From positions 1-64,000 of the forward strand of contig JAVHLJ010000011.1 in the NCBI GenBank assembly GCA_031082205.1: a stretch of 64,000 bases of DNA, given 5' to 3'. The notes below the pieces were generated by a model. The model was not told where the DNA came from and did no database searches. It was given only the letters and a program-made list of their open reading frames with translations. The stretch is from Elusimicrobiales bacterium (GTDB taxonomy: Bacteria > Elusimicrobiota > Elusimicrobia > Elusimicrobiales > UBA9959). Shown piece by piece: positions 188-56,023 of this stretch. How positions within the stretch are numbered: the first letter of the stretch is position 1; every line of letters starts with the position of its first letter. Made by a program: the position numbers and the translations under genes.

Positions 188-927
188 CGCGTCCTTCCCT
201 CTATCTTTTCGAGTTCCCTGAGCGCGCGCTCGGCGTATTCCTTCTCGGGCGCGTTCTCGGCGATGTCCCGGTATATCTCCGCTGCCGTGGAGTAGTCTCC
301 CGCCCGCTTGCTGAGGAAAGCGGTCTGGTTCTTGAGCATGGTCGGGCAATCGGGCTGGCGCACCACGGGAAGGAGGAGCCTGACTATCTCGCCGGGATTC
401 TCCTCTCCGCTGTGCCCCAGGGCCGCCAGGACCGAATGATAACGCCACTCGCGCGGGGCCCTGCTTATAGCCAGCTCCAGTATCGTCCTGGCCTCGGCGG
501 GCTTGTTGAGGTTATAGGCGAGGGAGGCGGCCGAATAGATCACGGCGCTGTGGAACCAGGGATCGAGGTCGATGACGTGAAGGGACAGGGGAATGAACTC
601 GGGGTACTCGCCCTTCTCCCAGCCCGGGCCGTGATCGCAGACGCTGCCGTCGGCGTGATGATGCTCGCGATGCTCCTGTATCCTCTCGTCGTGGACGGAT
701 TCGCGGGTGCCGTAATACTGCATGAGGCGTATGAACCAGACGTCGGCGAAAAGGCGGCGCGCGCCCAGGCTGACGGCCGCCGCGTCCTCCGCGGCGCTGC
801 GGCGCACCTCCCTTATATCGGAAACGGCGGGCAGGGGGGGGCGGTAGCGTTCCGCCCGCAGGCCAAGGGCCAGGGCGGGCAGGAAGAAGAGGAGGCCCAG
901 GAGCAGGTCCTTAACCCGGGGCGACAA
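184..927 (-). CDS. Membrane-anchored TPR protein
   Basis: The ORF track begins further upstream, but I choose the TTG at 927. It has an AAGGAG ribosome-binding site seven bases away and starts just after the upstream stop. The resulting 247-residue protein has one N-terminal hydrophobic helix (about residues 5-22), a charged linker, a His/Asp-rich patch (HDERIQEHREHHHADG, about 80-100), and a C-terminal half of TPR-like helix pairs (KPAEARTILELAISRAPREW, then DYSTAAEIYRDIAENAP). TPR repeats mediate protein-protein contacts; this one should face the periplasm. It sits 3' of an ABC exporter permease and overlaps the glycosyltransferase by ATGA, so it probably belongs to the same operon. Its specific function is unknown. 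Confidence 0.6.
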   Translation of the reverse strand: MSPRVKDLLLGLLFFLPALALGLRAERYRPPLPAVSDIREVRRSAAEDAAAVSLGARRLFADVWFIRLMQYYGTRESVHDERIQEHREHHHADGSVCDHGPGWEKGEYPEFIPLSLHVIDLDPWFHSAVIYSAASLAYNLNKPAEARTILELAISRAPREWRYHSVLAALGHSGEENPGEIVRLLLPVVRQPDCPTMLKNQTAFLSKRAGDYSTAAEIYRDIAENAPEKEYAERALRELEKIEGRTR

Positions 928-38556: not shown

Positions 38557-41500
38557 TCAATAACAGTCGCCGAGGCCTCCGGACCCGACCCGGGCCCAGT
38601 CCCCCGCTCCGGTCCCCGTCGAGACGCAGAGGTCATAGACGGTGCTGTTGAGCACCACCAGGCCCGCGGCCTCAGGAGAATAGGCGGCCAGCTCGGCCCC
38701 GGTCATCGAACGAGGCTGCCAGAAGCCCTGGGCCGTGAACGTGGACTTTGTAGTAGGGGCGCCGAAGTCGGCCGCGGCGTCAACGGAAAGGGCGCCGCTC
38801 ATCGTATCGCCGCCTTTGGAGACCTTGCCGGCGATATCAGAGACTATGACCGCGGTGGAGGTGATGACCCCGCCGAGGCTGGCGCCGCTTCCGTAATACG
38901 CCGAGGCCGTCACATTGCCGAGCGTGGTTATGCCGGCCCCGGCGCCGTCATTGTAGAAGGCGCCGCTAGAAAGATGCAGCCGAGCCGAAGGCGAGCGGGT
39001 GCCTATGCCCACGCGGGCCGTGGCGGTGGAGGCGTAAAGTATCGGAGTTACCGCCGCCGTGCTTATCAGGGTATTTGCGCCGATGTGCAGCCTTTCCGTA
39101 GGGGAGGCGTATATCCCGAACAGGCCGTTCTGGTCTATGCGGTACACTTCTGTGCCGCCGGGGAAACCGAACCCCCCGGGGCTGGCATTGTACACGAACT
39201 CGCCGGTGGACAATGTGCCGAAGGCGGCTTTAGGGTTGCCACTGGCCTGCGAGAAGTTTATGTAAGACGGACCGCCGAAAGGGGAGATCCTCAGGTACGC
39301 GCCGCCGGTATCGCTATCGTCCTCGTTCGTAGTGCCGATGGCTATGGCGCCCCGGACCTGGAGCCGCTCGGCCGGATTTTCCACCCCTATCCCGACCCGG
39401 CCCTGCGTCGTCACCACCATGTCGTAATCGAGATTGGCCAGATTGGCGGACCCCACGATAAGGGAGTACATCTCGTCGCCCTTCTCCACCACGTGCAGCC
39501 TGGCCAGCGGCGTCCCCACGCCTATCCCGGCGTTGCCGTTCACGTAGAGCTCGGTGCTGGATATGACGCCGTAAATGGTGCCGTGCATGCCGCCCAGGAC
39601 GGTAAGGCTTGAAGCCACCACCATGTCCCCGTTCACCACTAGGCGGTGGGTATCGGGCGAAACGGTGCCGATCCCCACCCTTCCGGTCGTGGAACTGATA
39701 TAGAGCATCGGGTTGGCGGCCGAAGTGCTGACAAGTATGTTCGTGGCGATATGCAGCGAGGCCTGCGGGCCGTAAGGCGAAGCGTGGCGCGAGTTCCCGA
39801 TCCCGAAATTTCCGTTCTCCTTGATGCGGAATATCTCCGTGCCGTTCTGCATATTGGTAGCGGCGGCCCTGTAGACGAGGTCCCGGCCTCCGCTGGGAGC
39901 CCCCAATATGCCTATGCCGGGGTAGGAAGTGTCGTCCCAGGCTATATAGCCCGCGCCGCCGCCGCGCGTCTTGAGCGTGAAGATGGCACTGGCGTAGGTA
40001 TCCGAAGAGGTGACGGCCATGGCGGGGGTCACCTCCAGGGGATAGGAAGGTATGGCCGCGAGGCCGACGCCTACCCTTCCGGCGGTGGTCACCGCCAGGA
40101 CATAGGTGGAGGGATTGGTCGCCGTGGCGACGGTCAGCGCGTAGACATTGGCGTTGCCGTAACCGAATACGGAGACGCTGGAGCCATCCACCCGCAGGTT
40201 GCCGGTCATGGTGTCGCCGGCCTTAAGGAGCTTGGTGCTGTCCGTCCCCAGAACATTGGACAGCCCCGCGCCGCTGCCGCGGAACAGCGGAGCGTCCACG
40301 ACGCCCATATTGACCCTTATGCCGGAGGAGGTTTCAACGCTGTACTGGCTGACGCCGAAAGCGGTGAAAACGCCGGAAGAGGCTTGTATCCTGAAAGCTT
40401 CCACGCTCCCGGTGACCGACACCGAAGACCCGAAAAAGCCGCCCTGGGCGGTCACGCTCGAGGTGAGCAGCATCCCGCCGTCGATATACGCCTTGTGCTC
40501 GGCGGTGGAAGCCCCCACGGAGAACCACGCGCCCGGGGTCACGGCAAGCCCGGCGGAGCCGGTGACCGTGAGCGACGAGCCGGCCAGCGTCAGCTGGCCC
40601 GTCATGGTGTCCCCGGCCTTCAGGACCTTGCTGGGGTCCGTCGCGGTGATATCCGTAAGGCCGGTGCCGTCGCCGATGAAGCGGGCCGCCTTCATGACCC
40701 CCGTGGAGGACATGGAGGCTATTATCACGCCGGCGCTGTCGCGCCAGATCTGCGCCTGCACGTCGGGTGAAGCGCCCGGCGCGGCCACTTCGAGACGGGC
40801 GGAAGGGGAGGACACTCCGACTCCGACGAAACCGGCCGTTGTCACGGAGAGATGATAGACCCGGCGGGCCGCGTCGGTGGTGACCGCCAGGGAGTAATGC
40901 AGCGAATTGTTCGTGTTCACTATCGTCATGCTCGAAGAGCCGGAAAGAGTGAGCGGGCCCGTCATGGAGTCCCCGGCCTTGAGCACCCGCAGCAGGTCCG
41001 CGGCCGTGGCGCCGGTAAGGTTAGAGCCGTCGCCGTGGAAATAGTTGGCGTAGACGCGGCCTTCACCGGTCATCCGGATAAGATCGGACGACCCCGTCGA
41101 TATCAGGACTATGTTCCCGGCGGCGCCGATGCCGCTGCTTATGTGCAGCCGGGCCCTGGGCGCGGGCTCGCCTATCCCCACTTCCTGGATCGTCACTTCC
41201 GTGTACATGTCGCTGCCGCTCAGCTCCCATTTCGTCTCGGCGGCGGCCGTGACCTGCACGGTGCCGTCGGGGAACTTGAAGCCGCAGGAATAGGGAAAAA
41301 TATCGCAGCCGGCCGGGCCCTGGCTCTCCACCAGGCCGGAAACGCTCAGCTGCTGGCCGGGGGAGATGCTCCCCACCGATATGCCGCCCTGTACGAAGAG
41401 GTTGGTCGAAATGGTTATGGCCCCGTTGGTGGTCTGGGGGAGAGGGCCTATGACGTCCGCGGCGAAAACGCTGGTGGCGGCGCTGGCCGTGGAGGCGTAA

Positions 41501-41919
41501 AGGGAATTGAAGGCGAAAGGGGCCGCCTGGAGCCGGACGCGGGGGGAGAGGGGATCGAAGGACCCGCTGCAACTGGCGGTGGGGGCTATTTCGACCTGCA
41601 GCCAGAGATTGCTGTTGCTGATGAATATATCCGGGGGAATCCCTCCGGGGGTATTGGAGCCGACCTCCACCTCGTAGCGGCCGTTGCTCATGGGGACATT
41701 GCATACCGTCTCAGTGAAAAGCGCGCCCCCCCCGGCCGACGCGTTGTAGACCAGGAAACGGACGTGTTTGGAGCCGTCCACCGGACGGTTGGTCTCCTTG
41801 TTGAGGAGGAACCCCTGGTAATTGAAGCTCCTGGTTATGGCGGCGCCCGCGTCGGCGGCGAGCGCGGCGGCGGCAAAGGCGGCCAGGGCGGCCTTTAGTA
41901 TCGGTTCGTGGATCCTCAT
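38557..41919 (-). CDS. Large exported KAGDTMTG-repeat protein
   Basis: 1120 residues. An N-terminal signal (ALAAFAAAALAADAGAA) is followed by a domain with ITRSFNYQGFLLNKETN and QAAPFAFNSLYAS, common at the start of exported bacterial repeat proteins. The rest repeats phage-tail-fibre-like modules: GDGSNLTG or GDGTGLTD, then VLKAGDTMTGxLTL (four clear copies near residues 315, 435, 565 and 1035), and many RVGIGTxSPxARL-type units. It is rich in Ser, Thr, Gly and Ala. It is probably a surface beta-structured fibre or adhesin; function unknown. It is encoded 27 bp after the fibronectin-III gene. Confidence 0.7.
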   Translation of the reverse strand: MRIHEPILKAALAAFAAAALAADAGAAITRSFNYQGFLLNKETNRPVDGSKHVRFLVYNASAGGGALFTETVCNVPMSNGRYEVEVGSNTPGGIPPDIFISNSNLWLQVEIAPTASCSGSFDPLSPRVRLQAAPFAFNSLYASTASAATSVFAADVIGPLPQTTNGAITISTNLFVQGGISVGSISPGQQLSVSGLVESQGPAGCDIFPYSCGFKFPDGTVQVTAAAETKWELSGSDMYTEVTIQEVGIGEPAPRARLHISSGIGAAGNIVLISTGSSDLIRMTGEGRVYANYFHGDGSNLTGATAADLLRVLKAGDSMTGPLTLSGSSSMTIVNTNNSLHYSLAVTTDAARRVYHLSVTTAGFVGVGVSSPSARLEVAAPGASPDVQAQIWRDSAGVIIASMSSTGVMKAARFIGDGTGLTDITATDPSKVLKAGDTMTGQLTLAGSSLTVTGSAGLAVTPGAWFSVGASTAEHKAYIDGGMLLTSSVTAQGGFFGSSVSVTGSVEAFRIQASSGVFTAFGVSQYSVETSSGIRVNMGVVDAPLFRGSGAGLSNVLGTDSTKLLKAGDTMTGNLRVDGSSVSVFGYGNANVYALTVATATNPSTYVLAVTTAGRVGVGLAAIPSYPLEVTPAMAVTSSDTYASAIFTLKTRGGGAGYIAWDDTSYPGIGILGAPSGGRDLVYRAAATNMQNGTEIFRIKENGNFGIGNSRHASPYGPQASLHIATNILVSTSAANPMLYISSTTGRVGIGTVSPDTHRLVVNGDMVVASSLTVLGGMHGTIYGVISSTELYVNGNAGIGVGTPLARLHVVEKGDEMYSLIVGSANLANLDYDMVVTTQGRVGIGVENPAERLQVRGAIAIGTTNEDDSDTGGAYLRISPFGGPSYINFSQASGNPKAAFGTLSTGEFVYNASPGGFGFPGGTEVYRIDQNGLFGIYASPTERLHIGANTLISTAAVTPILYASTATARVGIGTRSPSARLHLSSGAFYNDGAGAGITTLGNVTASAYYGSGASLGGVITSTAVIVSDIAGKVSKGGDTMSGALSVDAAADFGAPTTKSTFTAQGFWQPRSMTGAELAAYSPEAAGLVVLNSTVYDLCVSTGTGAGDWARVGSGGLGDCY
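38800..40995 (-). repeat. KAGD(T/S)MTG coding repeats
   Basis: Four degenerate coding repeats, centred near 40980, 40620, 40225 and 38815, encode VLKAGDSMTGPL, VLKAGDTMTGQL, LLKAGDTMTGNL and VSKGGDTMSGAL. The first three are about 360-400 bp apart and each is preceded by a GDGSNLTG-like or GSGAGLSN-like unit. This is intragenic repetition within the exported protein gene, not a mobile element. Confidence 0.75.
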
Positions 41920-41946: not shown

Positions 41947-43572
41947 CTAGCGTATCACGACGGCAGTGCCGTTGTAGACTTCTCCGCCGGACTCGATCTG
42001 GTATACGTAGACGCCGCCCGGCACGTCGCGGCCTTCGGCGCGCGGGTCCCAGACGAGCGAATTCTCCACCGGCCCCGGGACCATCGACGCCACCCGTGCG
42101 CCCTTGAGGTCGTAGATGGTTCCCCTGGCGGAAGCGCCTGACGGATTGTCGAAAACGAACACCATCGTATCATTTTTGCCGTCGCCGTTCGGAGTTATCA
42201 GGCGGTTGGAAAGACCGGCGGCGTCGGCCGAGAAACCGCCGCTCCTTTCCGTGGACCGCAGCTGGTAGCGCCCCAGCAGAGTGGTCTCCAGCGTGACCCT
42301 TGAATTGGGCTGGTCCACCTTGCCGTAGAGCTGCAGCCAGCGGCGGCCGTTGTGGAAGAAAACGCTGAGCCTCTTGTAATCCGGCACGGCCGAGGGGACG
42401 TAGGAGTCGCCGCTCTTGGAGTAATAGAGCCGCAGGGAACCGGGGGAGGCGAGCTTGAAGGAGTCGTCGCGGGTAAGCCCGCCGCGGTAGGCCGCGAAAT
42501 CCACGCTTTTGATGACGCGGCCCCCGACCTCGTCCGTATTGGAAGCGACCTCGATGGTGTAAAAATCCAGCTGGTCCGCGGCCGGGCCGGCGAAAGGCGC
42601 CATGGCGGCCTGGGGGATCTCCATGATGCTGGACCCGTCCGGCGCCACGAAATACCCGCCGTTGGCGAGACCGCCGCGGACATAGGAAGGCCTGGAAAGC
42701 CCCGCCTGGTTGACGGCGCTCACCCGGTAAAAGTATTCGGCGCCGGGCGCGACCGGGTCAACGAAACTGAAAGTATAGGACGAGACCTCGGCGATGAAGG
42801 TCCAGTTCTCCGTGGCCGGCGTGGTGGCGCGGAAGACGTGGTAGGCCTTTACCTCGTAAGGCGAGGTGGGGCTCAGCCTGTTGTCGAACTCTATGCGCGT
42901 GGAGTAGCCCGCGGGCGGTATCCAGGAGAGGGAATAAGAACTGGCGCCGGCCGCGCTCTGGAAGTTCATCGGCGGCAGCGGGGTGAGGGCGAAAGAGACG
43001 GCCCTGTTGGAGAGCTCCGCGGCCACTCTTTCGGAATTGTAGGCGCGCAGCGCGAAATAGTAGGTCGCGCCGGGGTTGAAGCCTTCAAGTATGAAGGTCT
43101 CGGTGGCGCCGGCGGCCAGGGGCGACCAGGACTGCGAAGCCGGCACCGTCACGGCGTTCCTGAAATCCGCTTCGGTAGATATGGGGGCGGAGAGGGAATA
43201 CCTTAGCACATACTCCCGGTTGGAGCCCCCGATGGTATGCCAGGCCTCTTCCGGCGCCGTCCAGGTCATGCGTATGGAATCGCTGGAAACGATGACGGTG
43301 GCGAGGTCGTTCACGGCCGAAGGCTGCGGGAAATAGGCGAAGGCCCCGGAACGCGAGGAATACCCGTAGTGATCGGGGGGATTGCCAGGTGAGACAGAAC
43401 TGGAGACCGAGAGCTCCTGCAGGGCCGAGAATGAGATGTAGCCGGAGGAATACCCCAGGGCGCCGCCCCAGCCCGTACCGCCGTCGCTGTCCACGAAGGA
43501 CGCGGACTCGTAGCGGCCGGCCCAGGAAGGGCCGGCGCAAAGGAGGAGGGAAATTAAAACGATGGCGCGCAT
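41947..43572 (-). CDS. Exported fibronectin-III protein with gliding-type C-terminal module
   Basis: 541 residues from ATG 43572, which opens a signal peptide (MRAIVLISLLLCAGPSWAG); the longer track start is rejected because it runs through the -10 box. Two fibronectin-III-like domains are visible: SIRMTWTAPEEAW ... GATYYFALRAYNSE (about 100-205) and YSLSWIPP ... GAEYFYRVSAVNQAG (about 215-310). A middle domain of unclear type follows. The last 85 residues form a gliding/type IX-like C-terminal module: NRLITPNGDGKNDTMVFVF, GTIYDLKGARVASM, GVYVYQIESGG. It is probably a cell-surface protein. Confidence 0.75.
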   Translation of the reverse strand: MRAIVLISLLLCAGPSWAGRYESASFVDSDGGTGWGGALGYSSGYISFSALQELSVSSSVSPGNPPDHYGYSSRSGAFAYFPQPSAVNDLATVIVSSDSIRMTWTAPEEAWHTIGGSNREYVLRYSLSAPISTEADFRNAVTVPASQSWSPLAAGATETFILEGFNPGATYYFALRAYNSERVAAELSNRAVSFALTPLPPMNFQSAAGASSYSLSWIPPAGYSTRIEFDNRLSPTSPYEVKAYHVFRATTPATENWTFIAEVSSYTFSFVDPVAPGAEYFYRVSAVNQAGLSRPSYVRGGLANGGYFVAPDGSSIMEIPQAAMAPFAGPAADQLDFYTIEVASNTDEVGGRVIKSVDFAAYRGGLTRDDSFKLASPGSLRLYYSKSGDSYVPSAVPDYKRLSVFFHNGRRWLQLYGKVDQPNSRVTLETTLLGRYQLRSTERSGGFSADAAGLSNRLITPNGDGKNDTMVFVFDNPSGASARGTIYDLKGARVASMVPGPVENSLVWDPRAEGRDVPGGVYVYQIESGGEVYNGTAVVIR

Positions 43573-43736: not shown

Positions 43737-44129
43737 ATGAAGACAAGGGAACGGCTCATAAAAGGGAGCGGCGGAGCGGCCATATCGCTGGCCGCCGCCC
43801 TCCTGCTCGCCCCGGCCCTCATGGCCGCCGTCACCGTCGGGAGTTCGCGCGCCCTAAACCGGCTGGTGACCCCCAACGGCGATTCCCGGAACGACACCTT
43901 CATGTTCAAGTGCCACAATCCGTCCGAACTTCTGGTAAGGGGCGAGATATTCGACCTGAAGGGCCGCAAGGTGGCCGATATGGTCCGCGACATGTCGGCC
44001 CCGATAGACGATTTCTACTATATGGAATGGGACCCCAACCTGGGCCTCCGCGCGGCGGGGGGCGTCTACATTTACCAGATAACGGCCGGAGAAACGGTGC
44101 TCAAAGGGACCATAGTGGTCGTAAGATAA
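43737..44129 (+). CDS. Small exported protein consisting of a gliding-type C-terminal module
   Basis: 130 residues from ATG 43737. A signal peptide (about residues 1-35, ending ALMAA) precedes a single module: LNRLVTPNGDSRNDTFMFKC, GEIFDLKGRKVADM, GVYIYQITAGETVLKGTIVVVR. It is clearly homologous to the last 85 residues of the divergent fibronectin-III protein, so it is a stand-alone copy of that domain. Its gene precedes the PorV-like gene by 16 bp, suggesting the two work together at the outer membrane. Confidence 0.7.
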   Translation: MKTRERLIKGSGGAAISLAAALLLAPALMAAVTVGSSRALNRLVTPNGDSRNDTFMFKCHNPSELLVRGEIFDLKGRKVADMVRDMSAPIDDFYYMEWDPNLGLRAAGGVYIYQITAGETVLKGTIVVVR

Positions 44130-46099: not shown

Positions 46100-47416
46100 A
46101 TGACGCTGAGGACAAAGCTGAACCTGGCGCTGCCGGCCGCTGCGCTGTCCGCGGCCCTGGCGGCCGGCTATTTCTTCTACCGCTTCGGACGGGAGGAGAT
46201 CTACCGGGTGCAGGAGGAGCGCATAGCGGCGGCCGTGGCCGGCGCCGAGCGGATGGCGGCGGAAGCCGCCCTGGCCGGCGACCAGCTGATGCTGGTGGAC
46301 TACCTGGCCGACCTGCGGCGATCCAGGCCCGACATAGCCGCCGCTTTCCTTTCCTGGAAAGACGGCGCCGAAAAGGAGATACGGGGGGGCAGGCCTCCCC
46401 CGGGAGCGCCGTCCGCCGGGCGCCCGCTGACGCGGCGCGCCTCCGCGCGGGGAGCCGCCGTAAGACTGGACTTCTCTTCGGAATACCTGGAGAAAGAAAG
46501 GGCGGGCCTGCTGATGGCGCTCTGGCGCAACACGGCCAAGGCCGCGGCGCTCTCCGCGGCGCTGGCTGGCGCGCTGGCTTTCCTGCTCTCGGCCGGCATA
46601 TCCCGCAGGCTGGGGCGTCTCTCGGCGCTGGCCGCCGATATCGGGGCGGGGCGCTTCGGCTCCCGGGCCTCGATAGGAGGCTCCGACGAGATAGCGGCAT
46701 TCGGCGCCGCTTTCGACGCGATGTCCGCGAAGCTGCTGGAGCTGGAGAACATGAAGAAGACCTTCGTCTCCTCGGTTACGCACGAACTCCGCTCTCCGCT
46801 GGGAGCGATAGAGAGCCGCCTGGCGCTGCTGGAGCGCCGGGCCGGCGCGGGCGAGGCGGAGAAGGGCGACTACCGCCGCATAAGGGAGAACGTCTCGCGT
46901 CTCTCGGCCTTCGTGACAGGACTGCTGGACCTGGCCCGAATAGAGCGGGGAGAGATGCCCTTCAGCCCCGGCCCGGAGGACGCCGCGGCGCTGGCGCGCG
47001 ACATAACCGATTTCTTCAGGCCGCGCGCGGCCGACCTGGGGCTGCGACTGGAATATTCCGGCGAAGCCCGGCTGCCGGCCCGCCTGGACAGGGAGCTGAC
47101 GGCCCATATGCTCACAAATTTCCTGGCCAACGCCCTTAAGTTCACGCCCAAAGGCGGATCGGTCGAAGTCCGGGCTTTCACCCGCGACGGCCATCTCGTC
47201 TTAGAGGTGGCCGACACCGGCGCGGGCGTACCCCCGGAAGCCGCGGGCAGGCTCTTCGAGGCTTTCTACAGGGCCCCGGGCGCCGCGGCGGGGGGAACTG
47301 GGCTGGGACTGTCCCTGTGCCGCCGCATAGCCGAAATGCACGGCGGCAAGGCCTTCTACCGTCCCGCTCAGGCGGGAGGAGCGGTCTTCGGAGCCGAGCT
47401 CCCCTTAAATAGTTAA
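46100..47416 (+). CDS. Sensor histidine kinase with HAMP domain
   Basis: 438 residues: N-terminal helix (about 8-28), a short periplasmic domain (about 30-140), second helix (about 150-172), HAMP (about 173-225), HisKA with the H box VTHELRSPLGAI (about 232), and HATPase with N box LTNFLANALKFTPKGG, VADTGAGVPPEA and GTGLGLSLCRRIAEMHGG. It is a complete kinase. No response regulator is encoded on the same strand; the nearest are the receiver genes at 51-52.5 kb. It follows the PorV-like gene by 7 bp. Confidence 0.88.
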   Translation: MTLRTKLNLALPAAALSAALAAGYFFYRFGREEIYRVQEERIAAAVAGAERMAAEAALAGDQLMLVDYLADLRRSRPDIAAAFLSWKDGAEKEIRGGRPPPGAPSAGRPLTRRASARGAAVRLDFSSEYLEKERAGLLMALWRNTAKAAALSAALAGALAFLLSAGISRRLGRLSALAADIGAGRFGSRASIGGSDEIAAFGAAFDAMSAKLLELENMKKTFVSSVTHELRSPLGAIESRLALLERRAGAGEAEKGDYRRIRENVSRLSAFVTGLLDLARIERGEMPFSPGPEDAAALARDITDFFRPRAADLGLRLEYSGEARLPARLDRELTAHMLTNFLANALKFTPKGGSVEVRAFTRDGHLVLEVADTGAGVPPEAAGRLFEAFYRAPGAAAGGTGLGLSLCRRIAEMHGGKAFYRPAQAGGAVFGAELPLNS

Positions 47417-47460: not shown

Positions 47461-47493
47461 ATGAAAGGGAGGCCCGGACCTCCCCGCCTATGA
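47461..47493 (+). CDS. Possible 10-residue leader peptide
   Basis: ATG AAA GGG to TGA encodes MKGRPGPPRL. Its TGA overlaps the ATG of the FliF-FliG gene as ATGA, the arrangement used for translational coupling here. The same bases form a 6-bp inverted repeat GGGAGG / CCTCCC (47467-47484). Too short for the ORF track; it may be chance. Confidence 0.3.
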   Translation: MKGRPGPPRL

Positions 47494-48944
47494 CCATCGC
47501 GACGCTGATATTCTCCGTATTTTTCCCGCTCTCGCAGGCGGCCGCCCAGGGACAGTCCCCCGCGGCGCCCGCCGTCACGCCGGCCGCGGAGGAGGCCGAA
47601 CTCTCCGCCCGCATGCAGGAGGACGTGGCGCGCCTCCTGGAGCAGCTGCTCGGCCGCGGCAAGAGCAAGGTGTTCGTGCGCGTCGAGGGCGAGGCCGCCT
47701 ACACCGCCACCAGCGAATCCGGCGCCTCCGATCCCGAGAATTTCCTGCAGCTCCCCGGCTTCTCCCAGATCACGGTCATGGAGAAGACCAACGAGTACAT
47801 CCAGCAGCAGAAGGCCGAGACAACCCACACCAGCCAGTTCAGGATAAGGCGCGTCACCGTCTCGCTGGTCTTCGACCGCAATATCCCGGAAGCCCGCGCC
47901 AACGCCATACGCCTGCTCGTCACCGACATACTCCGCCTCGACGATAAGCGCGGCGACACCATATCCCTGCTGCGCGCCGACATGCTGCCCTGGTGGAAGG
48001 AGTTCTTCGACGCGCCGGACATACACCGCATACTTCTGGGCTCCTTCCTGCTCACCCTTTCTCTGGCCTCGCTGGTGGTCTTCGCCTACCTGCTGGCCTC
48101 CCGCCTCTTCACCAGCCTGCTGGACTACGCCCGCATGAGCGCCCTTACCTCCCAGGCCGGCTCCGCCGCCCCCGGGGCCTCCGGGGCGCAGGGCGGCGCC
48201 GGAGGGGAAGAAGGAGAGGGCGGCGAGTTCGCGGAGGTCATAGACGCTGAAGGCGGCGGCCTGCGCCTGCTCGAGAGCCAGGATTCCTTCTCCTTCGTGG
48301 AGAAGATGCCCGCCGAAGAAATAAGCGAGATCCTCGCCGACGAGGCCGAGGAGGACGCGGCCATAGTAATAGCCCAGCTCGCCGACCGCAAGCCCCACAT
48401 CTCCTCCAAGCTGCTGCTCAACCTGCCCCCGTCCCGCCGCGAGGCGGTGACCCGCCGCATGCTGGCGCTCAAGCAGGTGGAACCCGAAAGGCTGATGGAG
48501 GTCGAGAATAACCTCCGCCTGCGCATAGAGAAATCGCTAAAGGGCAGCGAGAAGCTGGGCCGCATACTCAGCCTCGTCGATCCCGCCGAGCGCGAGGAGC
48601 TGCTCTCCGGGCTCAAGGGCGTGGACCAGGCCTCTTTCGACCGGCTGCGCGGCGCGCTGATCACTTTCGACGAGCTCTGCGCCCTGGACGAGAAGAACCT
48701 CAAGCCCCTGGTCCTGGCCCTCCCTTACCCCGAATGGGCCGTGGCCCTGCAGGGCATGGACGAGGGCCATACCCGCAGCGTCATGAAGGTCTTCCCCGAG
48801 GACGTACGCGCCATCGTCCGCGACATGCTCGCGGCCCGCCAGGAGAAGGAGAAGGTCATCCTGGCCCGCGCCAAGGTCATAGCCACCGCCATGGACCTGG
48901 CGTCCAAGAATCGCATCGAGATAACGGCCGGGAGGAGCGCCTGA
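47490..48944 (+). CDS. FliF C-terminal region fused to FliG (rotor fusion)
   Basis: 484 residues. The signal-like N-terminus (FFPLSQAAAQG) leads to a periplasmic part resembling the end of FliF: FRIRRVTVSLVFDRNIPEA, then LDDKRGDTISLLRADMLPWW, matching FliF's LSVAVVVN ... DKRGDTLNVVNSPF segment. One membrane helix follows (about 189-210, as FliF TM2), then a Gly/Ala/Glu linker (225-245), and a FliG-like cytoplasmic domain (about 268-475). The FliG part aligns with the middle and C-terminal domains: EDAAIVIAQLADRKP, FDELCALDEKNLKPLVLAL, WAVALQGMDEGHTRSVM and VRAIVRDML. FliF's N-terminal ring domains and first helix are missing. It should be a minimal MS-ring/rotor protein. It overlaps the next gene by one base. 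Confidence 0.8.
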   Translation: MTIATLIFSVFFPLSQAAAQGQSPAAPAVTPAAEEAELSARMQEDVARLLEQLLGRGKSKVFVRVEGEAAYTATSESGASDPENFLQLPGFSQITVMEKTNEYIQQQKAETTHTSQFRIRRVTVSLVFDRNIPEARANAIRLLVTDILRLDDKRGDTISLLRADMLPWWKEFFDAPDIHRILLGSFLLTLSLASLVVFAYLLASRLFTSLLDYARMSALTSQAGSAAPGASGAQGGAGGEEGEGGEFAEVIDAEGGGLRLLESQDSFSFVEKMPAEEISEILADEAEEDAAIVIAQLADRKPHISSKLLLNLPPSRREAVTRRMLALKQVEPERLMEVENNLRLRIEKSLKGSEKLGRILSLVDPAEREELLSGLKGVDQASFDRLRGALITFDELCALDEKNLKPLVLALPYPEWAVALQGMDEGHTRSVMKVFPEDVRAIVRDMLAARQEKEKVILARAKVIATAMDLASKNRIEITAGRSA

Positions 48945-51010
48945 TGGAAGCCGAGAACCCCGCCGGCCGCGAGATAGGATTTCTCTGGGACGCGATGAAA
49001 AGCGCCCAGGAGGAGGCGGGCAGGCTTTCGCGGAACTACGCGGAGGCGGCGCGCAAGGCGGGGGAGCTCAATTCACGGCTGGCCCACCTGGAGCGGGCGC
49101 TGCAGGAGGCCCGCTCCCGCGAATCGGCGCTAAAAGCCGAGATAGAGAGGATGCGCGCCGGCGCCGCGGCCAGGGATGAACTGGTTAAGCGGGCCTCGGG
49201 CCTGCTGGAAGGCCACGCCGCCATGGCGGAGCGCGCCGAGAAGCTGGCCGCCGAGCTTGGATCGGAAAAGGAGCGCGCGGCCATTCTGGCGGGGGAAAAA
49301 GCGGCGCTCGAGAAAAGTCTGAACGGGACTTCCTCTAGGGCCGCGGCCCTCGAGGACAGGCTTAAGGCCATAGCCGCCATGAAACCCCTCGCCGAGGCGC
49401 TGGAAGCCGCGGCGGCCGGGCGGGAAGGGAGCGTCTCTCCGGAAGACCTCCTGCGCGAACTGGCCGACGCCGGGGCCGAGGCCGCAAGGATGGCCGTCGA
49501 ACTTCAGGCGAGGTCGGCGGAAGCCGAGGCGCTCGACAAAGAAATAAAAACGATCAGGACGGAAAAGGCCTCCCTTGAAAAGTCGCTGGAAGGGGCCTCC
49601 GCCCGGGTCGAGGAGCTGGCCGGGGAACTGGCGTCCGTCCGCGAGACGGGCAAGACCTCCGCCCTGGCGCTGGCCGAAGCCGAGTCCGCGCTGGCGGAGA
49701 CCGGCAAAGCGCTGGCCGCGGCCAGGGCCGAAGCCGAAGCCCTGCGGGAGAAGGAAAAAGGCCTGGAAGAACTGGCCGCCGAGCGGGAAGCCGCGGCCCA
49801 TTCCCTGCGGATGGAGCTGCGCGACGCGCGCCTGGCGGCCGAGGAGCAGAAGACCAATTTCGCGGGAGCCGTGCAGAAAGTGTTCGAGCTCCAGACCAAG
49901 GCGGCCGAACTGCGCAGGGGACTGGAAGAGGCGCTGGAGAAGGAGAAGTCGCTGGCGGAGCAGCTGCGCGAGTCGCGCGCCGAAACAGAGAAGCTCAACG
50001 GCCTGCTCCGCGACGCGAAGACCGGGCTTTCCCTGGAAAAGGAGATGAACAAGCGCTCCACCGCCAGGATAAACACCCTGCTCGCCGAGGGGGAGTCCCT
50101 CCGCGAAACCCTGCGCAAGGCCGACGACAGCCTGCGCGAGACGATAAAGAAACTGCGCGACCGCGACGCCTCGATAGCGCTGCTCAAGCAGGAACTGGCC
50201 AGGATAGACCGCCTCCAGGAGGAGGTGGAGGACCTCAAGCGCCGCAACATGCGCCTGAGCGGCCTGATCAAGCGCGAGCAGTTCGATTTCACCGAGAAGA
50301 TAATAAAGGGACTCTCCAAGATATCGGGGGACCTCAACCTCTTCAGCTACCGCCTGCCCGCCGCCGCCCGCAAGAACCTTGCACCGTCGCTCAAGGCCAT
50401 GCTGGCCTCCGTCACGCTGATGAAAGGCTGGCAGGCCTATATCGACGAGACCCCTCTGCACCTGGAGAGAGGGGAGCTGCGCTCCATGCTCGACGGGCTG
50501 CTGGACGGCTGGGAGCGGCCCTTCCGCAACAAGAAGCTCTCCCTATCGCGGCAGGTCATACTCCCTTCCGCCTGGATCAAAATGGACAGGGAGAAACTCC
50601 GCCTGGCCTTCTACCAGGTGATAAAGAACGCCCACGAGAACCTGCCGCCCGGCACGTCGCTCAAGATGACGATGACCGGGACCGAGGACCGCTCGAAGGC
50701 CGTGGTCATCTTCGAGGACAACGGCCACGGCTTCCCGGCCGAGGTGCTGGACCGACTCTACCTTCCTTTCAATACTTCAAGGAAGGACGCCACGGGCATA
50801 GGCCTCGCCACGGCCCACAGGATACTCGAAAGGCACGGGGGGGAATTCACGGTATCCAACAGGAAGGAAAGAGGCGCGGCCGCGATGTTCATATTGCCGC
50901 TCGACTGGGGAGCGCTGCCCCCGTCGGAAGAGCCCAAAGCCAAAGAAGCGCAGAGGGACGGGGCTCCTCCTCCTCCTCCGCCGCCGCCGCCTCCTCCGCC
51001 CAAGGCCTGA
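48944..51010 (+). CDS. Coiled-coil protein with C-terminal histidine-kinase ATPase domain
   Basis: 688 residues from ATG 48944 (TGATG overlap with the FliF-FliG gene). Residues about 10-450 are an almost unbroken Ala/Glu/Lys/Arg coiled coil. The C-terminal 240 residues hold a GHKL ATPase: YQVIKNAHENLPPG (N box), VIFEDNGHGFPAEVL (G1) and ATGIGLATAHRILERHGG (G2). I see no canonical H box (HExxxP) before it; the region reads FTEKIIKGLSKISGDLNL. The tail ends in a run of 12 prolines. No membrane helix or signal peptide, so it is cytoplasmic. Its coupling to the rotor gene suggests it works with that protein. Confidence 0.75.
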   Translation: MEAENPAGREIGFLWDAMKSAQEEAGRLSRNYAEAARKAGELNSRLAHLERALQEARSRESALKAEIERMRAGAAARDELVKRASGLLEGHAAMAERAEKLAAELGSEKERAAILAGEKAALEKSLNGTSSRAAALEDRLKAIAAMKPLAEALEAAAAGREGSVSPEDLLRELADAGAEAARMAVELQARSAEAEALDKEIKTIRTEKASLEKSLEGASARVEELAGELASVRETGKTSALALAEAESALAETGKALAAARAEAEALREKEKGLEELAAEREAAAHSLRMELRDARLAAEEQKTNFAGAVQKVFELQTKAAELRRGLEEALEKEKSLAEQLRESRAETEKLNGLLRDAKTGLSLEKEMNKRSTARINTLLAEGESLRETLRKADDSLRETIKKLRDRDASIALLKQELARIDRLQEEVEDLKRRNMRLSGLIKREQFDFTEKIIKGLSKISGDLNLFSYRLPAAARKNLAPSLKAMLASVTLMKGWQAYIDETPLHLERGELRSMLDGLLDGWERPFRNKKLSLSRQVILPSAWIKMDREKLRLAFYQVIKNAHENLPPGTSLKMTMTGTEDRSKAVVIFEDNGHGFPAEVLDRLYLPFNTSRKDATGIGLATAHRILERHGGEFTVSNRKERGAAAMFILPLDWGALPPSEEPKAKEAQRDGAPPPPPPPPPPPPKA

Positions 51011-51022
51011 GCCGGGCCGGCC

Positions 51023-51748
51023 TCAACACTCGTCTTTCAGTCTCAGCAGGTATCCCATCCCGAACACCGTCTCTATGCGCGCCGCGAAGCCGCCCAGCTT
51101 GGCGCGCAGCGCTTCCACGCGCTTGTCCACGGCGCGCTGCGAAGCCGACGCGGGGTCCTTCCAGAGTGCGTCCATCAGAGTCCCGCGGGCTATGACGCGG
51201 TTGGGGTGGTTAAGGAAGAAAACGAGAAGGTCGAATTCCAGGCTGGTAAGGTCCGCGGTCTTGCCGCAGGCCGTCACCGTGCGCGCGGAGAGGTCCACCT
51301 CGAGACCTCCCGCCCTGATGACAGGGGGCGGCGGCGCCCCGGCCGCGCGGCCCCGGAGGCCGCGCTCCATGAGATTGCGGAGACGGGCGTCCAGTTCTTC
51401 GGGAGAAGGGAGGGGGCTGAGATAATCGTCCGCACCGCTGTCCAGCCCCGTAACGACTTCGGCCGGGACGCGCGGCGCGGCCGAAAATATGATCAGCGTG
51501 ACGCCCGCGGTCGGGGGATTGCGGCGCAGCGCCAGCGCCAGGTCGGCGCCGCCCAGGTCCGGCAGGTCCGTGTCGACGGCGGCCAGGTCTGGCGGAGCCG
51601 AGGCGAGCGAGGCTATGAACGGGCCGGCGGCGGGGTAGGAGGAGACGGAGAAGCCGGCCCTTTCAAGGGCTTTCAGCATCCGCTCCCCGGCGGGGCCTGA
51701 CGAGACTACGGCGGCGGAGGGCCGGCCGCCGGATCGGGGTTCAGCCAA
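51023..51748 (-). CDS. OmpR-type regulator with atypical receiver domain
   Basis: 241 residues, start TTG 51748 overlapping the upstream receiver gene's stop. The receiver-like N-terminus keeps the phospho-acceptor Asp in AVDTDLPDLGG, but the acidic pocket normally reading DD is SS (AAVVSSG) and the conserved Lys-Pro is Ser-Pro (YLSPLPS). The C-terminal winged-helix (about 150-238) is typical of OmpR/PhoB: LTSLEFDLLVFFLNHPNRVI and VFGMGYLLRL. It probably binds DNA, perhaps without phosphorylation control. It is convergent with the coiled-coil gene, 12 bp apart. Confidence 0.82.
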   Translation of the reverse strand: MAEPRSGGRPSAAVVSSGPAGERMLKALERAGFSVSSYPAAGPFIASLASAPPDLAAVDTDLPDLGGADLALALRRNPPTAGVTLIIFSAAPRVPAEVVTGLDSGADDYLSPLPSPEELDARLRNLMERGLRGRAAGAPPPPVIRAGGLEVDLSARTVTACGKTADLTSLEFDLLVFFLNHPNRVIARGTLMDALWKDPASASQRAVDKRVEALRAKLGGFAARIETVFGMGYLLRLKDEC

Positions 51749-52112
51749 AGAAGGACCTCACTCTCCTGACGAAATCTTCCGGGCGGAAAGGCTTTATGAC
51801 ATAGCCGGCCGCGCCCCCCGCCAGGCCCGAGGAGACGTAATCCAGCTCCGAGCGCACCGTGAAAAGCAGCACGGGAACTTCCTTAAGCGCCGGGTCGGAC
51901 TTCAAGGACTTGAGCACGTCCAGGCCGCTCATGTCGGGCAGGCCTATGTCCAGGACTATGAGCCCCGGCTTCTCCGCGGCCGCGGCAGCGAGGCATTCCG
52001 CGCCGGTGGCGGCCCGGGCGGCGCGCAACCCGGCCTCCTCCAGGAGGCGGGAGGCTATTTCCAGGTAATCGGTCTCGTCGTCGGCCACGAGCACCAGGGG
52101 GGGATTCTTCAC
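51741..52112 (-). CDS. Single-domain response regulator (CheY-like)
   Basis: 123 residues from a GTG at 52112 that overlaps the upstream stop as GTGA. A full receiver: VADDE acidic pair, phospho-acceptor Asp in VLDIGLPDMSG, Thr in LLFTVRS and Lys in VIKPFRPED. No output domain, so it acts by protein contact, for example on the motor or in a phosphorelay. It lies between the OmpR-type gene and a second CheY-like gene. Confidence 0.88.
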   Translation of the reverse strand: MKNPPLVLVADDETDYLEIASRLLEEAGLRAARAATGAECLAAAAAEKPGLIVLDIGLPDMSGLDVLKSLKSDPALKEVPVLLFTVRSELDYVSSGLAGGAAGYVIKPFRPEDFVRRVRSFFG

Positions 52113-52489
52113 TTGGCCGCACCGCCCAGGAGAGCTTCGACCTTTTTCTGGACATAAGCCAGCTCGGTGGTCTTGCTCATGAACTCGCGGCAGTTGGACT
52201 CCTGCCGGAAAAGCTCGCTCATCTGCTTGTCGAAGAAAGTGCCCGTCATGACCAGCACCGGGATGGAGCGGGTATCCTCGTCGGCCTGCAGGCCGCGCAG
52301 CACCTCGATACCTCCGACGTCGGGCATCATCACGTCGCAGATGATGAGGTCGGGCTTTAGTTCCCTTGCCCGCGCCAGTCCCTCGGCCCCGTTCATCGCC
52401 ATCGCTATCTTGTAGCCGATCTCGCCGAAATAATCGGCCACCATCCCCCGGAATTCGTCGTTGTCGTCCACTATGAGTATCAGCGCCAT
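52109..52489 (-). CDS. Single-domain response regulator (CheY-like)
   Basis: 126 residues from ATG 52489 (track ORF over-extended). Receiver landmarks: ILIVDDND, Asp in ICDVMMPDVGG, Thr in VLVMTGTFF, and Lys in FMSKTTE, where the usual KP is KT. A Cys-containing segment (QESNCREFMS) precedes the Lys. It starts 17 bp after the large kinase gene and should receive phosphate from it. Confidence 0.87.
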   Translation of the reverse strand: MALILIVDDNDEFRGMVADYFGEIGYKIAMAMNGAEGLARARELKPDLIICDVMMPDVGGIEVLRGLQADEDTRSIPVLVMTGTFFDKQMSELFRQESNCREFMSKTTELAYVQKKVEALLGGAAK

Positions 52490-52506: not shown

Positions 52507-54600
52507 CTATTGAGTGAGCCCCTTGGCCACGGTAAAGATGAACTTGGACCCCTTGCCCACTTCGGACTCCACCCAGATATCGCCCTTGTGCAGTTCCACC
52601 GTCATCTTGCACATCGCCAGGCCCAGGCCGAAGCCCTGGCTCTTATGCTCCTCCATCTGCGAGTACTTCTCGAAAATGGCCTTGCGCTTGTCCTCCGGGA
52701 TCCCGGGGCCGGTGTCCTCGACCCAGAAGAAAACTTTGTCCGCGTCCTGCGAGCAGCCGAGGGTGATCTTCCCTCCCGGGGGGGTGAACTTGAGCGAATT
52801 CCCCATCAGGTTGGTTATGACGCGCTCGAGCAGCGTGCGGTCGCCGTTGAACTCGATGTTCTCCGGCGGGGGGGCCGCGACCAGCGTGATCTTCTTGGGC
52901 ACGGCCACCGGCTCATGATTGTCCCGGATACGGGTTATCAGTTCCGCGGCCGATATCGTGTCCAGCTGCAGCGTCATGGTGCCCCGCTGCAGCTTGGTGG
53001 TGTTCAGGATGTCGTCTATCATGCCGCGCAGCCTGCGCGAAGAATAGAGCATGCTCTGGAAATACTTGTCGGTGCCGGGGTTGGGCGGCAGCTTCTTCAT
53101 CAGCAGTTCCACGTAGCCCTGTATGGTGGAGAGCGGCGCGCGCATGTCGTGCGTGATCATGTGGAAGAAGTCCTCTTTGGCCTTCTCCAGCTCCTTTTCG
53201 TTGGTGATGTCGCGGATGATGATGACGCGGCCGGGGCGCTTGAGGGTGGCCTGCATGAACTGGGCCGCCAGGACGCGGTAGTTCTTTATCACCTGTGGGG
53301 AGGTTCCCTCCAGGGGGGCTTCCACCTCGTCTCGCGCGTACTTTTCCTTGGAGGCCAGGAGTTCCTGGAACTTCTCCCTGAAGGCGTCGCTGCGTATGGA
53401 CTTCGGGAGCACGGCGCCCGAGGGATTGCGGCCGAGCCCCAGCAGGCTGAGCGCCAGCTGGTTGGAGTAGATCAGCGTGCCGCGGTCGTCGAGCAGCAGC
53501 ACGCCGTCGGGAATGGTGTCTATCAGCGCCTGCGCCTTGTTCTTCTCCTCCATTATCTGGTTGAGCTGGAAGGCGCGGTAGGCCTGCAGTTCCAGCATCA
53601 TGCGGTTGAGGATGCCGACCAGGTTCTTTATTTCAGGCCACCCCTCGGCGGGTATCACCTTGTCCAGCCTCTGTTCCTTGAGGAACTTCTTGACGCCGTT
53701 CACCATGTTGTTTATGGGGGCGATGATGCGGCGCGAGATCAGCAGCACGACTATGACCGTGGTGACCGCCGAGATGAGCGTGAACACGGAGAACAGTATT
53801 ATGGAGCGGCGCTGCGCGCCGTATATCTCGTCGTGGCTCTGCAGCGAGACCGCTACCCACGGGAGTTTCTCGGTGGCCGCGTAGGCCCCGGCGAAGCGCT
53901 CTCCGCCCAGTTTCATGGACGGCATCCTGTCGATCTTGGCGCTGATCTTGAAAACACGGCGGACGGCTTCGGAGTCTATCGACTCAGGATCGATCCCCTG
54001 GCACGGAAGCGGGACTCCCTTCTTGTCCAGTATTATCACCCGCCCGCTCTCTCCGGTGCGCATCCCGCCCATCTTGCCCCAGAGCTTCTCCAGCGAGAAG
54101 TGGAAGATGACCACGCGCGAGTCGATGAGCGGGTAGGCGAGGGGGAAGAAAGGCTGGCCCTCGGCGCAGATCACCTCGCCCATCTGTATGCTGCCGGCCT
54201 CCCGCGCCTTGCCCGCCAGGTCCGGGATGAAAGTCGTAAGGTGGTCCTTGTTCTTTACGTTCTCGCTCTGCAGCTTGAATATCTCGGAGCCGTCGGGCCG
54301 CAGGAAGCTCAGCGCCATGATCTCGGAATTGACGGCGACGGCCTCTTTGATAAGCGCCGTCTCGTCTATGTTCTTCTTCTGGAGGGGGTGTTCGACGGTG
54401 TAGAGGAAGGCGAGGCTGCGGTTCACGCTGGCCAGCCATTCCTCCATGTTGGAGGCGGCGAGCGAAGAGACCGTCTTGTGCAGGCTGAATACGCCGGCGA
54501 TGCTGCCGCGGTACTGGTATACGTTCCACCCGACCGACACCAGCAGCGGGAACACGGCTATTCCCAGCAGTATCAGGAAGAATCGGGTTGTAAGCTTCAT
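52507..54600 (-). CDS. Membrane sensor histidine kinase (dCache-HAMP-PAS-HisKA-HATPase)
   Basis: 697 residues. Helix 1 (about 5-25), a large periplasmic region (about 30-275) resembling dCache sensors (GRVIILDKKGVPL, LPWVAVSLQSHDE), helix 2 (about 278-300), HAMP, a PAS domain (about 370-460; GVLLLDDRGTLIYSNQLA), HisKA with MITHDMRAPLSTIQGY, and HATPase with ITNLMGNSLKFTPPGG, VEDTGPGIPEDK and GFGLGLAMCKMTVELHKG. It senses a small molecule or envelope signal and should phosphorylate the adjacent CheY-like proteins. It follows motB by 7 bp on the same strand. Confidence 0.9.
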   Translation of the reverse strand: MKLTTRFFLILLGIAVFPLLVSVGWNVYQYRGSIAGVFSLHKTVSSLAASNMEEWLASVNRSLAFLYTVEHPLQKKNIDETALIKEAVAVNSEIMALSFLRPDGSEIFKLQSENVKNKDHLTTFIPDLAGKAREAGSIQMGEVICAEGQPFFPLAYPLIDSRVVIFHFSLEKLWGKMGGMRTGESGRVIILDKKGVPLPCQGIDPESIDSEAVRRVFKISAKIDRMPSMKLGGERFAGAYAATEKLPWVAVSLQSHDEIYGAQRRSIILFSVFTLISAVTTVIVVLLISRRIIAPINNMVNGVKKFLKEQRLDKVIPAEGWPEIKNLVGILNRMMLELQAYRAFQLNQIMEEKNKAQALIDTIPDGVLLLDDRGTLIYSNQLALSLLGLGRNPSGAVLPKSIRSDAFREKFQELLASKEKYARDEVEAPLEGTSPQVIKNYRVLAAQFMQATLKRPGRVIIIRDITNEKELEKAKEDFFHMITHDMRAPLSTIQGYVELLMKKLPPNPGTDKYFQSMLYSSRRLRGMIDDILNTTKLQRGTMTLQLDTISAAELITRIRDNHEPVAVPKKITLVAAPPPENIEFNGDRTLLERVITNLMGNSLKFTPPGGKITLGCSQDADKVFFWVEDTGPGIPEDKRKAIFEKYSQMEEHKSQGFGLGLAMCKMTVELHKGDIWVESEVGKGSKFIFTVAKGLTQ

Positions 54601-54607
54601 GGCCGGC

Positions 54608-55237
54608 TCAGATCTCGTGGCGGATGATGTTTATCTCTATGCGCCTGTTGGCGGAACGGCCTTCCGGAGTCTCGTTAGACTTTATCGGCTTGAACTCGCC
54701 GTAGCCTACCGCGGAAAGTTTCTCCGGCGCCACGCCCTGCTCCACCATGAACTTCAGCACGGAGAAGGCCCTGGCCGCCGAAAGCTCCCAGTTTGACCTG
54801 AATTTTGCGCCCTTGGCAAGCGGGCGGGCGTCGGTGTGCCCCTCTATCTGTATGGGGTTCGGCAGGTCGCTGAAGACCTTGGCCAGGCGCTTTAGGTGCG
54901 GCTTAGACTGTTCCCTGAGGATGTCGCTGCCGGGAGCGAAGAGTATCGGCTCCGAAAAGTTTATGTTTATCTTGTTGGCCGAGATCTCCACTTGCGCTAT
55001 CTGCTGTATGCCGTGCTTTGAAAAAAGCATGGAGGTAGTCTCGGTGTCCTTGCCGAAAGTGTCCTCCAGGCTTTTCATGCTGAACTGCGCGGCGATGTTC
55101 TTGGAACTGTAAAAAGCGAAGAGGATCATGAAGAAGATCATGAGGTAGCTCATCAGGTCGCCGTAGGTTATCGCCCAGAGGGCGCCCCTGTTGAGCTCGT
55201 TCTCCAGTTCGTCTTCGCGTTCGTAGAACCTGGCCAT
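54608..55237 (-). CDS. motB: MotB-like stator protein with OmpA peptidoglycan-binding domain
   Basis: 209 residues, a short MotB. Cytosolic N-terminus, then one helix (about 20-42) beginning WAITYGDLMSYLMIFF; the Asp aligns with the proton-channel Asp of MotB. The OmpA/MotB domain (about 95-205) has IQIEGHTDARP and NWELSAARAFSVLKFM. Together with MotA it should conduct ions and anchor to the cell wall. Encoded 9 bp after motA. Confidence 0.9.
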   Translation of the reverse strand: MARFYEREDELENELNRGALWAITYGDLMSYLMIFFMILFAFYSSKNIAAQFSMKSLEDTFGKDTETTSMLFSKHGIQQIAQVEISANKININFSEPILFAPGSDILREQSKPHLKRLAKVFSDLPNPIQIEGHTDARPLAKGAKFRSNWELSAARAFSVLKFMVEQGVAPEKLSAVGYGEFKPIKSNETPEGRSANRRIEINIIRHEI

Positions 55238-55246
55238 GGTTCCGCC

Positions 55247-56023
55247 TTAAGCCTCCGACCTCGCCAGCCGCGCCTGGTTGGCGGTCAGGTAGCCGCGCAG
55301 GTGCATCTCGACCAGGTGGGGCGTCTTGCCCGCCATGATGTCCATAATGCCCTCTATTATGAGCTGAAGTCCCGCCGTTTCCTCTATCGCCCGCAGGCGT
55401 ATCTTGTTGGCGACCGGCACGAAGAGCAGGTTGGAGAGAGCTATGCCGTAGAAAGCCGAACTGATGGCGACGGCCATCGAGCGGCCTATGGCCGTCGGAT
55501 CGGTTATATTGGTCAGCGTCTCGATGATGCCGAACAGCGTGCCTATCAGGCCGAACATGGGGGAAAGTACGGCCATCGTGCGGTAGAAATTGGAGTCTTC
55601 GTTTATGGCGAGGCGGCGGCGGCGCACCTCTTCTTCCAGTATCGCGCGGGTCTCGCGGGACTCGCCGCTGACCATGGCGACCGAGACCGAGCGGCGCAGG
55701 AATCCCCTGGCGAAGCCGGGATCCACGTTCTGCAGCGCCATTATGCCTCCCTGCTTATGAGCGGTGTCGGAAAGCTGGACTAGGATCTTAACGCAGTCCT
55801 CTATGGAGGGGTAATCGGGGCTGCGGAATATTACGGCGAAAGAGCGTACGCCGCTCATGAAGCCCGAAAAAGAGGTGTTCACGATGGTGGCGGCCAGCGT
55901 TCCGCCGATGACCAGGACTATGCCGTGGGCGTTGAGGAACAGGTCGCCGACCCCGGAAGTGACTATACCCCAGGCCATGACGGCGGCCGCCAGGGAGAAT
56001 CCGATCAAAGTCATTATGTCCAT
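55247..56023 (-). CDS. motA: MotA-like stator protein
   Basis: 258 residues, four helices. Helix 1-2 region with NAHGIVLVIGGTLAATIVN, a cytosolic loop with the charged segment EEEVRRRRLAINED that aligns with the torque-generating Arg/Glu loop of MotA, and the TM3-TM4 core MAVLSPMFGLIGTLFGII ... AVAISSAFYGIALSNLLFVPVANK. It pairs with MotB. It is the first gene of a motA-motB-kinase-receivers series. The nearest rotor-like gene is the FliF-FliG fusion 6.3 kb away on the other strand. Confidence 0.9.
   Translation of the reverse strand: MDIMTLIGFSLAAAVMAWGIVTSGVGDLFLNAHGIVLVIGGTLAATIVNTSFSGFMSGVRSFAVIFRSPDYPSIEDCVKILVQLSDTAHKQGGIMALQNVDPGFARGFLRRSVSVAMVSGESRETRAILEEEVRRRRLAINEDSNFYRTMAVLSPMFGLIGTLFGIIETLTNITDPTAIGRSMAVAISSAFYGIALSNLLFVPVANKIRLRAIEETAGLQLIIEGIMDIMAGKTPHLVEMHLRGYLTANQARLARSEA

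Follow-up and report, generated by a model that had tools for sequence, protein, structure and literature searches.

A natural FliF-FliG fusion beside MotA and MotB in Elusimicrobiota lacking a flagellum: candidate rotor of an envelope-spanning motor

The stretch of DNA analysed here (the window: 64,000 nucleotides of a draft Elusimicrobiales MAG, G000, listed as 100% complete and assembled in 98 contigs) carries an intact open reading frame running from ATG at 47490 to TGA at 48944 on the forward strand. Its 484-residue product consists of the S-ring domain (RBM3) and last membrane helix of FliF joined to the middle and C-terminal domains of FliG. Around it lie genes for an outer-membrane barrel, histidine kinases and receivers, surface proteins and the stator pair MotA/MotB (Table 1). 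The ATG of the coiled-coil gene that follows overlaps the fusion-gene stop (TGATG), a longer start at 48734 also appearing in the list of open reading frames; the start of the second receiver was placed at MALILIVDD because the longer part of its frame is not receiver-like. The FN3 surface protein is conserved in all 20 relatives whose locus of this kind (type I, below) was fetched. Adjoining the module is the 1120-residue protein, which weakly resembles the mosaic adhesive trimer fibres of Bdellovibrio and occurs in 10 of the same 20.

Table 1. Features of the fusion locus in the window, with the evidence for each.
Feature	Position	Strand	Evidence
Repetitive fibre-like protein, 1120 aa, weak candidate for a trimeric adhesin	38557..41919	-	Bdello_MAT_N 5e-5 (below cut-off)
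FN3 surface protein with T9SS type B-like C-terminal domain	41947..43572	-	fn3 1.2e-11; CHU_C 9e-6 and Bac_Flav_CTERM 1.3e-4 (both below cut-off)
Small protein with C-terminal T9SS-like (CHU_C) domain	43737..44129	+	CHU_C 5e-4 (below cut-off); conserved in ~20 loci
PorV/PorP-like outer-membrane barrel with C-terminal TPRs, 648 aa	44146..46092	+	PorP_SprF 4.4e-9 (above Pfam cut-off); PorV_fam 2.4e-12 (below curated cut-off)
HAMP-HisKA-HATPase histidine kinase, directly upstream of fusion gene	46100..47416	+	Pfam
FliF(RBM3 + last TM)-FliG(M+C) fusion, 484 aa	47490..48944	+	Pfam, PDB profile, AlphaFold2 model, Foldseek, hydropathy, orthologs
Parts of the fusion (residues): signal-peptide-like 1-21; RBM3 ~31-163; TM helix ~178-210; linker 224-263; FliG ARM-M/C ~268-480			
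Coiled-coil protein with C-terminal HATPase_c	48944..51010	+	Domain match; homologues in ~18 other loci
OmpR-type response regulator	51023..51748	-	Domain match, conserved in type I loci
CheY-like receiver protein	51741..52112	-	Domain match, conserved in type I loci
Second CheY-like receiver protein (ORF open to 52612)	52109..52489	-	Clusters with the 51741-52112 protein
dCache-HAMP-PAS histidine kinase	52507..54600	-	Domain match, conserved in type I loci
MotB (plug + OmpA peptidoglycan-binding domain)	54608..55237	-	Ion-binding Asp kept in YGDLM; 75-97% identity in relatives
MotA	55247..56023	-	Closest to PomA/MotP/flagellar stator models, 2.4e-46; TolQ only 2.8e-5

Both halves of the fusion are recognised by profile. 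Pfam places YscJ_FliF_C at residues 98-160 (1e-5), FliG_M at 276-348 (1.1e-7) and FliG_C at 375-478 (2.8e-11), all above gathering cut-offs, and a profile built from 45 relatives matches, among PDB sequences, FliG 1lkv over residues 271-478 (7e-40) and FliF 6scn over residues 31-231 (7e-9), the latter aligned with FliF 239-511, the C-terminal part only. The AlphaFold2 model (mean pLDDT 77) begins with a periplasmic domain of helix 31-54, strands 59-70 and 116-129, helix 134-148 and strand 157-163, an alpha-beta-beta-alpha-beta order which, as modelled, is the RBM3 topology; a short, low-confidence loop at ~73-115 occupies the position of the FliF collar. One long helix (176-223), the disordered linker and an all-helical FliG part complete the model, with which Foldseek retrieves FliG middle and C-terminal structures at 1e-8 and FliF S-ring/RBM3 structures at ~1e-3. 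Hydropathy gives a single membrane segment besides the signal-peptide-like start; together with the RBM3 fold this identifies the retained part of FliF as the S-ring-forming domain with the last membrane helix. What has been lost is RBM1-2, along with the first membrane helix and the greater part of the collar.

The original prediction, made from the window alone, was of a single intact frame joining the FliF C-terminal region through a linker to a FliG-like domain, without the N-terminal ring domains of FliF or its first membrane helix. All of this holds: YscJ_FliF is found neither in the fusion nor anywhere in the genome, and the signal-peptide-like N terminus stands in place of the helix. 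Its account of the FliF part as a periplasmic strand pair plus final membrane helix was right for the helix and too modest for the rest, a whole RBM3 domain being present. FliG_N, which normally binds FliF, is missing as well, its sole Pfam match in the fusion being sub-threshold and overlapping the FliG_M repeat; FliF and FliG are joined covalently where separate proteins would otherwise dock. MgtE, which is similar to FliG_M, was considered as an identity for the protein and set aside, its match being sub-threshold.

Homology to FliG and FliF, the presence of MotAB, and FlbD in related modules would all suit an unusual rotor of a real flagellum, as the original prediction supposed. The genome, however, has no match to the FlhA export gate (PF00771), to the FliF ring domains (YscJ_FliF, PF01514) or to the FliM/FliN C-ring (FliMN_C, PF01052), and across the phylum Elusimicrobiota just 5 of 341 genomes encode FlhA. 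Moreover G028, which does have a true flagellar cluster, encodes FliF and FliG separately within it and carries a fusion module of another type (type II, below) on a different contig. These absences, and the rarity of FlhA, rule out a flagellum, and we regard a flagellar role for the fusion as very remote; what survives of that prediction, and is well supported, is a minimal membrane-anchored FliG-based rotor. Neither SctV (FHIPEP) nor SctJ (YscJ_FliF) of a type III injectisome is found in the genome. In these cells without a flagellum, the rotor, with its own stator and outer-membrane partners beside it, probably powers another surface machine, such as gliding.

The pairing of the fusion with a stator is exact in this genome, where a profile search returns two FliG_C matches and three MotA_ExbB (PF01618) matches: two MotA proteins, one beside each fusion, and a 215-residue protein of TolQ/ExbB size elsewhere. 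The ion-binding Asp of MotB is kept in every locus type examined. Comparison with the 94%-identical ortholog in G002 gives dN/dS of 0.098 for the fusion, 0.047 for MotA and 0.029 for MotB, showing all three to be under purifying selection. An assembly join or a decaying flagellar remnant might be suspected in a draft MAG, loss of flagella being common, but the same architecture recurs in many independent assemblies; the 94%-identical copy in one of them, which disposes of the join within the linker that the original prediction had named as refuting it, and the dN/dS of ~0.1 exclude join and relic, leaving such an explanation with negligible probability.

Residues of FliG that take part in torque generation were mapped by gap-free alignment of the fusion with T. 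maritima FliG, using E. coli numbering. Lys264 corresponds to Q421, Arg281 to D438, Asp288 to D445 and Asp289 to M446. The original prediction was accurate as to Gln replacing the Lys of the LKG element (ALQGM) and Met the second Asp of RDDL (RDML); it was mistaken in holding that the torque-helix Arg is kept (HTRSVM), for Arg281 aligns with Asp438 and the Arg of that motif, R429, is not part of the torque helix, nor do orthologs conserve it. The phylum's true flagellar FliG, in G028, also lacks Arg281, having Glu there, and the partner residues in the MotA proteins of fusion loci are changed too; the altered charges are therefore compatible with torque, though they do not prove it.

Across ~14 kb, the 20 relatives whose type I locus was fetched share the same genes at and around the fusion: CTD protein(s), PorV/PorP-TPR barrel, kinase, fusion, coiled-coil ATPase-domain protein, receivers, kinase, MotB, MotA; one of the 20 (L060) gave no MotAB match. 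Orthologs of the fusion in genomes of the same family are 44-94% identical to it, and the survey of related genomes that the original prediction called for finds its architecture in many independent assemblies. The 45-row profile has matches in 153 of the 341 Elusimicrobiota genomes, a few of them ordinary FliG (e.g. G010, G166); the fusion family is present in about 150. A scan of all GTDB with type I-specific patterns returned 30 loci, all from MAGs, most named Elusimicrobia, Elusimicrobiota or Elusimicrobiales and the rest only 'bacterium'.

A second module, of type II, lies on another contig of the same genome (C22; L061) and comprises a 3781-residue surface protein, a PorV-like barrel, a 657-residue fusion with extra TPRs, a coiled coil, FlbD, MotA and MotB. 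Its fusion was modelled with AlphaFold2 at pLDDT 61, used for topology only. The surface protein (L061:96-11438), which heads the module, has a FlgD_ig/T9SS-like end, and Pfam gives no confident match to its long N-terminal part. FlbD, matched at 6e-26 in type II loci, sits directly before motA-motB (L061:17865-18086 in this genome) as in flagellar operons; it is a SwrD-type stator helper, kept here in non-flagellar modules. With the further types III and IV, at least four types of fusion locus exist, often in several copies per genome. In 58 loci of these four types, MotA was identified 52 times, MotB 51 times and a Por-like gene 57 times, several of the misses falling on short fetched stretches; most loci also carry a large surface protein beside these three. 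Distant Elusimicrobiota families also have the trio of MotA, MotB and barrel, in some cases with a second MotB gene. Such tandem motB-motB pairs follow motA in modules L176, L177, L178, L182, L183, L184, L188, L095 and L097, whose stators may contain two distinct B subunits.

In a FliG tree the locus types form clades and the canonical FliGs fall in one group (87/83), a pattern which, in an unrooted tree with four canonical rows only, is consistent with a single origin of the fusion. Neighbouring the fusion of locus L173 in this tree is a FliG-like protein of 370 residues from the same genome (L174:9339-10448), with a TPR-like match and without RBM3; it may reflect secondary separation of the two halves or be a truncated copy.

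In nine loci from distant genomes (L181 and L189-L196, in families f13-f15) a single open frame encodes histidine kinase, hydrophobic segment, RBM3, TM and FliG; the barrel gene is upstream in all nine, and MotA/MotB are nearby in eight. In the window the homologue of this kinase is the separate gene immediately upstream of the fusion. Of all the evidence that kinase and rotor act together, the in-frame joining is the most telling. It could be taken, along with the several kinases and receivers conserved in the type I locus, to indicate a surface or force sensor, in which the attached kinase reads the state of a rotor whose ring is under load from the stators, and the assembly signals contact rather than producing movement. 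But signalling is equally explicable as control of a motor, large surface proteins and barrels belong to the module, and the fetched type II loci have no kinase of this family beside the fusion; we think a sensor distinctly improbable.

The outer-membrane partners recall the type IX secretion system (T9SS). PorP_SprF is above the Pfam cut-off for the barrel of the window, and the genome's type II barrel passes the NCBIfam cut-off for PorV_fam; C-terminal sorting-like domains match CHU_C and FlgD_ig just below cut-offs. A search of the genome for SprA_N (PF14349) was negative, but the conclusion that T9SS is absent was dropped once TIGR04189 revealed a divergent SprA homologue: a SprA/Sov-like translocon matched at 2.6e-34 in three stretches, below the curated cut-off, in a 2189-codon open frame on contig C55 (L170:4896-11462). 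This suggests a T9SS-like system that has gone unrecognised in Elusimicrobiota.

Translocon and barrels, and the giant proteins within type II and IV loci, raise the question of whether the MotAB/FliFG motor energises secretion, replacing GldL/GldM of a T9SS-like pathway in the export or display of large surface proteins. Also in keeping with this, GldM was found neither in this genome nor in 12 others, one noise-level match excepted, in a search run without a Bacteroidota positive control. Yet G015 and G023 have a SprA-like gene and no fusion; this translocon therefore does not depend on the motor. A genome that has several different modules, with a separate barrel and surface protein in each, also fits dedicated movers better than a general secretion motor. 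We rate secretion as unlikely, though a serious contender. Our ranking of the outputs puts movement of surface adhesins first, ahead of secretion, with sensing last.

We therefore lean, on balance, towards the fusion being the rotor subunit of a non-flagellar, ion-driven rotary motor that drives T9SS-like surface proteins across the envelope. RBM3 of FliF forms the flagellar S-ring, and MotAB stators push FliG. By analogy, the RBM3 domain of the fusion would assemble a periplasmic ring, anchored by the single membrane helix, and the attached FliG domains would make a cytoplasmic torque ring pushed by the MotA/MotB stators of the same locus, themselves fixed to peptidoglycan. Torque would pass through the periplasm to the PorV/PorP-like TPR barrel and the large surface proteins with T9SS-like C-terminal domains, the output most likely being movement of adhesins for gliding or attachment, and histidine kinases and receivers would set the activity of the motor. 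The sequences establish the anatomy of the fusion, the lack of flagellar genes, the pairing with MotAB, the conservation of the modules, the joining of kinase to rotor, and purifying selection; ring formation, torque and surface output are what we infer. On the broader proposal, that Elusimicrobiota widely possess an envelope-spanning ion motor of a new class, its flagellar stator-rotor core freed from the flagellum, duplicated into specialised modules, wired to histidine kinases and driving T9SS-like adhesins, we are evenly divided.

We found no earlier report of such a system in the open-access literature. Its parts belong to known families; what is new is the system, in which a FliG rotor has MotAB and partners in the outer membrane but no flagellum. 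It offers, within one phylum, a concrete and testable case of a rotor under selection beside its own stator and outer-membrane partners. If the reading is correct, a flagellum-derived machine joins the few known ion-driven rotary systems, the fusion shows how little of FliF and FliG suffices for a rotor, and the rotor core would seem exchangeable between machines.

Bacteroidota T9SS and gliding machinery (GldLM, SprA, PorV, SprF-SprB) shares with the fusion modules PorV/PorP-type barrels beside large surface proteins with sorting-like C-terminal domains, and its SprA has a divergent candidate counterpart elsewhere in this genome; in Flavobacterium gliding, PorP-like SprF binds the adhesin SprB (PMC9143113). 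It differs in its motor, that of Elusimicrobiota being MotAB with a FliG rotor and GldM not having been found in the control-less search. The Agl gliding motor of Myxococcus likewise puts a stator of the MotAB/TolQR type to non-flagellar use; according to a 2026 review (PMC13104615), which makes no mention of FliG, the Agl stators travel along the cell. With the flagellar motor core the fusion system has in common the RBM3 S-ring domain, the last TM, FliG ARM-M/C with the torque domain, MotA/MotB and, in type II loci, FlbD; it lacks FliF RBM1-2, the first TM, FliG_N, FliM/FliN and the export gate, and is set apart by having FliF and FliG parts in one gene, altered torque charges, and linked outer-membrane barrels and surface proteins. 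FliF and FliG have been made into a single chain before, in Salmonella and Vibrio (PDB 8z4d; PMC11481574; PMC6079021), and these engineered fusions still form rings; they are full-length and laboratory-made, whereas the Elusimicrobiota fusion occurs in nature and is cut short in both its FliF and its FliG part.
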